Source of the DNA: Melioribacter roseus
GTDB lineage: Bacteria; Bacteroidota; Ignavibacteria; Ignavibacteriales; Melioribacteraceae
Assembly (NCBI GenBank): GCA_020722085.1
Contig: DYLN01000017.1
Location: 1 to 43,113 of the forward strand
Direction of reading: 5' to 3'
Length of the DNA: 43,113 nucleotides
Shown here: positions 7,334 through 11,698 of the stretch, piece after piece
Numbering within the stretch: position 1 is the stretch's first letter
How the letters are laid out: every line of letters begins with the position of its first letter
Translations under genes and position numbers: made by a program
Notes under the pieces: generated by a model
Told to the model about the DNA's origin: nothing
Seen by the model: the letters and a program-made list of their open reading frames with translations, nothing else
Database searches by the model: none

Positions 7334-10202
<2,869 letters not shown>

Positions 10203-10209
10203 TTTTTAT

Positions 10210-11574
10210 TTAATTTTCTCTTATAATCTTTGCGGCAAAGACACCGTCAATAAAATGATTATGAGGAAAAGTTTGCACACACCCGTAACGGTCAATTAAC
10301 TCTTTTGGAAAGCTGTCCGAAGCATTAACTAATTTGAACTCTTGGTTAAGATCTAAGAATTTTTTAACGATCTCAAAATTTTCCTCCGGTTCTGTGGAAC
10401 TGGTGGTGTAAACTAAAAATCCACCACGTTTCAAAAAACCGGCTCCTCTTTCCAGCAATCCATATTGAATATTAACAATTTTTCTAATATCACCCAAATC
10501 TCGTCTCCATTTAATATCTGGTTTTTTATTCAGCATTCCTAATCCTGTTGAAGGCGCATCGACAAGGACACGGTCAAAATCAGAACCATCATATTCATTT
10601 GGATCCTTTATTTCAATTCTTGCATTTTTTATTCCAAGCCTATCCAGGTTTTTCTTTTGAATTTTTACCCTACTTTCGAATCTATCGAGACAAATTATTT
10701 GTCCCTCGTTATTCATCATAGCGGCAATGTTGGGAGTTTTCCCTTCGGGCGTAGAACAAAGATCGAGGACTTTCATTCCGGGTTTGGGATCTAACAAGTG
10801 AACAGGCAATCCGCAGCTTTCATCCTGAACGGTGAAATAGCCTTTGGCATAGTATTCCCATGCGCTGATGTTAGTTAAGTTTGCAAGCTTGAAAAAATTT
10901 TTCAGATACTTCCCTTCGTTAAATTTCAGATCGACACTCTGTAATAAATTTTTAAATTCTTCAGGTGAGGTTTTCAATGTATTTACATGAAGAGTCATAG
11001 AAGGCTTATTATTGTTTGCTATTAAAAGCTTTTCGGCCTCTTCTTTTCCAAATCTGTTAATCCATCTTTTTACAAGCCAGGATGGGTGAGAATAATAAGC
11101 ACTGTAAAACCCAACAATATCCTCTTCAGGATTCGGATATCGAATTGCATCTTTGTTTCTTGCAATATTCCTAAGCACCATAGCGGTTAATTCTGCTGGC
11201 TTTTGCCCCTGCAATTTCCTGACAAATTCCACAGCTTCACCAATTGCTTCATTATCATGAATTTTATCTACGAAAAGAATTTGATAGAGAGCCACTCTCA
11301 TTGCATTTTTCACATTAGATATACATTTGGAAAACTGTCCTTTATAAAATCCGTTAAGTATCCAGTCAATGCGTCCTAACCAGCGGGTTACGCCGTGAAC
11401 AATTTCAAATAACAAAGCTTTTTCGCTTCCTGTCAATTCGGAATTTTTTATTTCAATATTGAGTAATTTATCAAGATATGCATCGGTTCTATCAACACGG
11501 TTTAAGAGTTTTACTGCGATTCCCCTAACACCCTGGTATAAATTTAATCCGGTTTGTTCAGTTATAGTTTCCAT
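10210..11574 (-). CDS. rsmB: RsmB/NOP2-family rRNA methyltransferase homologue with both active-site cysteines replaced
   Basis: 454 residues with the RsmB plan: NusB-like RNA-binding domain (about 12-145), linker with HPSWLVKRW, and a Rossmann methyltransferase domain (about 235-450). RsmB makes m5C967 in 16S rRNA, using a Cys nucleophile in motif VI (TCS) and a second Cys in motif IV (DAPCSG). Here motif IV is DAPSTG (Ser342) and motif VI is YTTSS (Ser392). I checked both codons (TCA and AGT) on the sequence. Motif I is also altered (CSTPEGKT instead of C-A-A-P-G-G-K-T). The SAM and RNA scaffold is otherwise kept. It may be catalytically dead, with a binding or assembly role, or use other chemistry. 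The gene has its own leader downstream of the rpmE terminator. Confidence 0.88.
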   Translation of the reverse strand: METITEQTGLNLYQGVRGIAVKLLNRVDRTDAYLDKLLNIEIKNSELTGSEKALLFEIVHGVTRWLGRIDWILNGFYKGQFSKCISNVKNAMRVALYQILFVDKIHDNEAIGEAVEFVRKLQGQKPAELTAMVLRNIARNKDAIRYPNPEEDIVGFYSAYYSHPSWLVKRWINRFGKEEAEKLLIANNNKPSMTLHVNTLKTSPEEFKNLLQSVDLKFNEGKYLKNFFKLANLTNISAWEYYAKGYFTVQDESCGLPVHLLDPKPGMKVLDLCSTPEGKTPNIAAMMNNEGQIICLDRFESRVKIQKKNLDRLGIKNARIEIKDPNEYDGSDFDRVLVDAPSTGLGMLNKKPDIKWRRDLGDIRKIVNIQYGLLERGAGFLKRGGFLVYTTSSTEPEENFEIVKKFLDLNQEFKLVNASDSFPKELIDRYGCVQTFPHNHFIDGVFAAKIIREN

Positions 11575-11666: not shown

Positions 11667-11698
11667 TAAAAAAGGCTGCAAAAATATGCAGCCCTTTT
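11667..11698 (-). terminator. Rho-independent terminator of rpmE
   Basis: On the minus strand a perfect 7-bp stem GGCTGCA/TGCAGCC (11687-11693 with 11674-11680) encloses a 6-base loop, is preceded by an A-rich stretch and is followed by at least six T. It lies about 20 bp after the rpmE stop and separates rpmE from the rsmB-like gene. Confidence 0.85.

Follow-up and report, generated by a model that had tools for sequence, protein, structure and literature searches.

An RsmB orthologue of Melioribacter roseus that lacks its catalytic cysteines is under selection and probably serves 16S rRNA assembly

The window analysed here, a 43,113-nucleotide stretch of Melioribacter roseus DNA, encodes an orthologue of the 16S rRNA methyltransferase RsmB in which both catalytic cysteines are replaced and which is still under purifying selection. 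We consider it probable (about 60%) that this protein is unable to make m5C967 and has been retained as a methylation-independent chaperone for the assembly of 16S rRNA helix 31.

The identity of the 454-amino acid protein as a true RsmB by descent was confirmed by equivalog profiles, domain order, the E. coli RsmB/Fmu fold and synteny. The two RsmB equivalog profiles, which carry curated cut-offs, were both matched above these values, NF011494 (NCBIfam) with 378.6 bits (cut-off 319) and TIGR00563 with 305.8 bits (cut-off 269.05), and the top sequence match among solved structures was E. coli Fmu/RsmB (1sqf). The NusB-like, ferredoxin-like and RsmB/F methyltransferase domains follow each other in the arrangement typical of RsmB (Table 1), and a Shine-Dalgarno-like AGGAAG is located immediately 5′ of the start codon. 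The gene order ftsK-lolA-...-holA-sigE-antisigma-rsmB-rodZ-ligA-... is common to 16 relatives, namely the genus-mate G001 and 15 others. The genus is represented here by two species, that of the window (assembly G000; 3.64 Mb, 99.94% complete) and G001, which was assembled independently. The gene of ribosomal protein L31 (69 amino acids, 11923-11714, minus strand) lies between the anti-sigma gene and rsmB and is followed by a hairpin. Because the L31 gene and this terminator-like hairpin are directly upstream, a separate transcription unit probably starts with rsmB and also includes rodZ and ligA. No tRNA or Rfam features were found within the window.

Table 1. Features of the rsmB locus and of its product, with positions in the window.
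Feature	Position	Strand	Description
rsmB coding sequence	10210..11574	-	454 aa, stop included; runs 11574 to 10210
NusB-like domain	11158..11529	-	residues 16-139; Pfam PF01029, 79.1 bits
NusB stretch, residues 102-131	11182..11271	-	L102, P106, A109, V111, K119 and N131, near-invariant in relatives, altered in both genus members
Ferredoxin-like RNA-binding domain	10873..11088	-	residues 163-234; Pfam PF22458, 63.8 bits
RsmB/F methyltransferase domain	10225..10800	-	residues 259-450; Pfam PF01189, 158.4 bits
Motif I (SAM-binding loop) DLCSTPEGKT	10735..10764	-	residues 271-280; G277E at 10746-10744
Motif IV DAPSTG	10543..10560	-	residues 339-344; Ser342 (TCA, 10551-10549) in place of Cys
Motif VI YTTSST	10393..10410	-	residues 389-394; Ser392 (AGT, 10401-10399) in place of Cys
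rodZ-like gene	9336..10202	-	helix-turn-helix and membrane segment; downstream syntenic partner of rsmB
ligA (NAD-dependent DNA ligase)	7334..9352	-	syntenic partner of rsmB; served as rate control
Terminator-like hairpin	11669..11698	-	upstream of rsmB; closes the preceding transcription unit

In RsmB-type m5C chemistry, the cysteine of motif VI acts as the nucleophile and the cysteine of motif IV is required for product release. A first-pass annotation of the window had reported serine at both places and a PEG instead of a PGG in motif I; this was borne out by the codons, by an alignment in which Ser342 and Ser392 both fall on the catalytic cysteine columns of 1sqf, and by the observed G277E exchange. 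Among orthologues from outside the genus but within its family (Melioribacteraceae) and order (Ignavibacteriales), Cys342 was present in 92 of 92 and Cys392 in 91 of 91 sequences. The RsmB of G001 carries serine at position 342 and asparagine at position 392; the loss is thus common to the genus, as the annotation had suggested checking, while the exact serine pair is not. A sequencing error, which the annotation had named as one of the observations that would overturn its reading, is excluded by the independence of the G001 assembly and by the different codons used (TCA/AGT in G000 versus TCT/AAC in G001). Together with 11 near-invariant positions altered in both genus members, seven of them in the NusB domain and four in the methyltransferase domain, these points also speak against a chance effect. 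No near-invariant residue of the linker and the ferredoxin-like domain was lost in both species, and 15 of 15 conserved methyltransferase residues outside the motifs were unaltered in both. The PGG loop of motif I is replaced by PEG in G000, where GKT is retained, and by SEC in G001, whose motif I is more altered (D271N, P276S, G278C). Three hallmarks of an active RsmB are therefore missing: the motif VI cysteine, the motif IV cysteine and the motif I PGG loop. As judged from these alignments, a loss of the catalytic cysteines is strongly supported.

Comparison of rsmB between G000 and G001 revealed saturated synonymous sites, a protein identity of 72% and an uninterrupted frame in both species, and therefore the gene is still under selection. 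A model with omega = 1 was rejected (2ΔlnL 482) in favour of an omega far below 1, exact dN/dS values being unreliable because synonymous sites are saturated. When neutral evolution of rsmB was simulated, 4 of 500 runs still had an intact open reading frame at 0.1 hits per site, and none of 500 did at 0.25. On a fixed species tree, the ratio of genus to remaining branch length was 0.230 for rsmB and 0.068-0.138 for 14 neighbouring genes; rsmB thus evolves about twofold faster than its neighbours in this genus, with a greater excess in G001, which indicates that constraint has been partly relaxed. The speed-up is confined to the methyltransferase and NusB domains (mean ratios from 30 bootstraps of 0.30 and 0.28), with the middle RNA-binding domain at a normal rate (0.13; ligA 0.08, holA 0.10). 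Much of the excess of the NusB domain falls on the genus stem; the methyltransferase domain continues to evolve fast along both tip branches and most so in G001. Such a rate pattern looks like that of a protein whose catalytic constraint is gone and whose other constraints are retained.

An AlphaFold2 model calculated with 70 orthologues as input had a mean pLDDT of 90.8 and a pTM of 0.88, and a Foldseek search with it retrieved the E. coli Fmu-SAM structure 1sqf at TM scores of 0.83/0.89. The chemistry thus appears to be lost and, according to the model, the fold retained, including the NusB-like and SAM folds that the first-pass annotation had expected to be kept and the RNA-binding fold between them.

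The 16S rRNA of G001 retains ...GATGCAACGCG..., in which we take two bases to be G966 and C967 of the E. coli numbering. No 16S rRNA was found in the assembly of G000, and C967 of this genus was thus seen in G001 only; it is also present in the 16S rRNA of G208, a member of another lineage with an inactivated RsmB described below. Loss of the substrate base is thereby ruled out for G001 and G208. RsmD, the methylase of 16S G966, is present in both G000 and G001; a stop flagged in the search sits upstream of the start codon and RsmD is intact. Both genomes also encode an RsmF-like protein with both cysteines, and such genes occur likewise in relatives whose RsmB is intact. Besides rsmB and the RsmF-like gene, the G000 assembly contains a single RsmB-like gene, whose cysteines are intact. 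It is found on contigs C139 and C158 (L186, L187), which are 99.99% identical over 14.8 kb and on which a coaE-like gene and a second coaD are also present. The chromosomal coaD of G000 lies about 4 kb from rsmD on one contig, and coaD and rsmD share a contig in G001 too. Because a second coaD is present while the chromosomal coaD shares a contig with rsmD, C139 and C158 are probably contaminants, and an intact second RsmB of the organism itself was rejected. The search for a second rsmB-like gene with both cysteines, proposed in the first-pass annotation, thus yielded none that appears to belong to the organism. Its suggestion of a pseudo-enzyme gains support from this result, from the cysteine loss common to the genus and from the retained folds.

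A survey that covered part of the class, with 391 genomes sampled out of a larger group, provided 233 full-length RsmB orthologues, 225 of which carry cysteine at both motifs. The eight exceptions comprise the two genus members, four sequences of family f17 and one each of f9 and f10 (family and genus labels are anonymous codes). The four f17 proteins combine serine at motif IV with alanine, serine, alanine and proline at motif VI, and a split ninth copy in G208 of the same family has Ser/Ala; a genus of f9 (g109) has Cys/Arg and one species of f10 (G109) has Cys/Ser, the relatives of the latter being intact. As low-scoring genomes were sampled deliberately, these nine copies do not represent a frequency. 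Outside the genus, the orthologues without nucleophile are L370-L373 and L368 (f17), L374 (G192) and L375 (G109), and in f17 the SAM-binding motifs are eroded too. In f17 the loss concerns the family as a whole, and dead copies persist across three of its genera. The Pfam match there no longer spans the SAM-binding part; matches to the NusB and ferredoxin-like domains persist in this family, and both domains are retained in dead copies generally. The AU test kept both placements of the f9 copy relative to f17, and the sequences point to at least three, probably four, independent losses within the class; the lower number is given because the tree cannot place the f9 copy apart from f17. In every dead copy the motif VI nucleophile is lost, and motif IV is never lost alone. 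This is what the chemistry predicts, because mutation of motif IV alone in this enzyme class leaves the protein covalently bound to RNA (PMC9561284), i.e. traps adducts. Further changes common to dead lineages concern N131 of the NusB domain, S390, T391 and N399; N131 is altered in all of them but the single-site Cys/Ser lineage. One orthologue with both cysteines (L247, G378) already shows V391 and T399, which are typical of dead copies, and may be an intermediate.

Several other explanations of these observations have to be weighed. A decaying pseudogene, which lost its activity, no longer matters and simply has an unbroken frame so far, would account for the faster evolution of the methyltransferase domain, most of all in G001. 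We regard it as quite unlikely, given the full-length frame in both species despite saturated synonymous sites, the strong purifying signal, the rapid loss of frame in neutral simulations, the normal rate of the middle domain and the persistence of dead copies in f17. At the other extreme, the protein might still be an active methyltransferase which uses serine or another cysteine, a reading in line with the SAM fold, with the presence of Cys273 in motif I and with the GKT kept in G000. The nucleophile site is, however, occupied by asparagine in G001 and by alanine, proline or arginine in other lineages, which leaves no common replacement chemistry, and Cys273 is equally common in active orthologues (218 of 225), hence no relocated nucleophile; continued activity is thus very hard to believe.

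It is also conceivable, if unlikely, that another enzyme, such as the RsmF-like protein or an RsmB-like paralogue of f17, methylates C967 and has freed RsmB for a retained or other role. The kept C967, the RsmF-like proteins with both cysteines in G000 and G001 and an additional RsmB-like gene in f17 genomes are consistent with such a replacement, but RsmF-like genes beside intact RsmB in relatives mean that nothing new arose in the genus, and the extra gene of the G000 assembly lies on the likely contaminants. Had the protein been recruited by another partner, RNA or protein, the NusB changes could mark a new interface; this would explain why seven near-invariant NusB residues were exchanged at or close to the stem of the genus, with a slow G000 tip thereafter. 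Such a recruitment also seems improbable to us: the middle RNA-binding domain and all 15 conserved non-motif methyltransferase residues are intact in both species, and the N131 change, shared by all dead lineages except the Cys/Ser one, may simply accompany the loss of catalysis.

We therefore favour retention of RsmB as an assembly chaperone, and infer helix-31 binding, the chaperone role and the absence of activity for these proteins. As it lacks the nucleophile of motif VI and the cysteine of motif IV needed for release, and as its motif I is altered, the protein would form no m5C967. It would most likely still dock on helix 31 of nascent 16S rRNA, using the NusB-like domain, the ferredoxin-like domain and the methyltransferase fold as a remaining shell, and would act there as a folding chaperone of the 30S 3′ domain without methylating it. 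Its RNA binding may have changed, since the near-invariant NusB residues P106, A109 and N131 are altered. With or without SAM, E. coli RsmB and RsmD make nascent 16S rRNA less prone to misfold in the helix 30/31 region (PMC13004024); RsmB was tested jointly with RsmD on E. coli RNA in that study, and the SAM-independent effect may partly be that of RsmD. In addition, 17S precursor accumulates in an E. coli rsmB knockout (PMC7056703).

E. coli RsmB (Fmu/Sun; 1sqf, 1sqg), the 16S m5C967 methyltransferase, shares domains, fold (TM 0.83) and equivalog models with the protein described here, whose orthologous locus is shared within the family of the organism. It differs in that the latter, which is predicted to be inactive, has replacements at both catalytic cysteines as well as at conserved residues of motif I and of the NusB domain. 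The mechanism proposed for E. coli RsmB/RsmD without SAM, in which the loop of helix 31 is bound while the subunit assembles and independently of methylation, would be common to both; the E. coli enzymes are catalytically competent (PMC13004024), whereas here catalysis was apparently lost through evolution. Human NOP2/NSUN1, of the same m5C methyltransferase superfamily, offers a parallel in that an inactive mutant rescues ribosome biogenesis (PMC9561284), but it is a eukaryotic protein with an engineered mutation and box C/D snoRNP partners. Mitochondrial METTL15 is likewise a methyltransferase of small-subunit rRNA with a chaperone-like role independent of catalysis, its inactive form still supporting ribosome biogenesis (PMC11197891), the differences being its m4C chemistry and, again, an engineered mutant.

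It has long been asked, mostly by means of engineered mutants, whether rRNA methyltransferases are retained because of the methyl group they deposit or because of what they do to the ribosome as it folds. For one enzyme, naturally inactive RsmB proteins that selection has preserved in several lineages would answer this from evolution; they would also provide ready-made test proteins and, if the chaperone reading is true, natural separation-of-function proteins. Earlier descriptions of inactive RsmB homologues were not found in the open-access literature. Tentatively, and at somewhat less than even odds, one can extend the argument to bacterial RsmB as such: its selected role would partly or mainly be chaperoning of the 30S 3′ domain, with methylation being dispensable, lost at least three times in one class and leaving a convergent signature of nucleophile loss together with N131 and N399 changes. 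On the practical side, genomes which probably lack m5C967 will be credited with it by annotation pipelines.

Two further observations from the class survey concern other RsmB genes. In L198 (G398), two stops interrupt the RsmB match while both cysteines are present, which may reflect an assembly error or a frame that broke recently. Family f12 (G111, G120, G138, G146, G153; L275) is seemingly without an RsmB orthologue and has only a distant RsmB-like gene of about 30% identity, G120 being without an RsmB-like match above E 1e-25; G146 of this family keeps C967 in its 16S rRNA.
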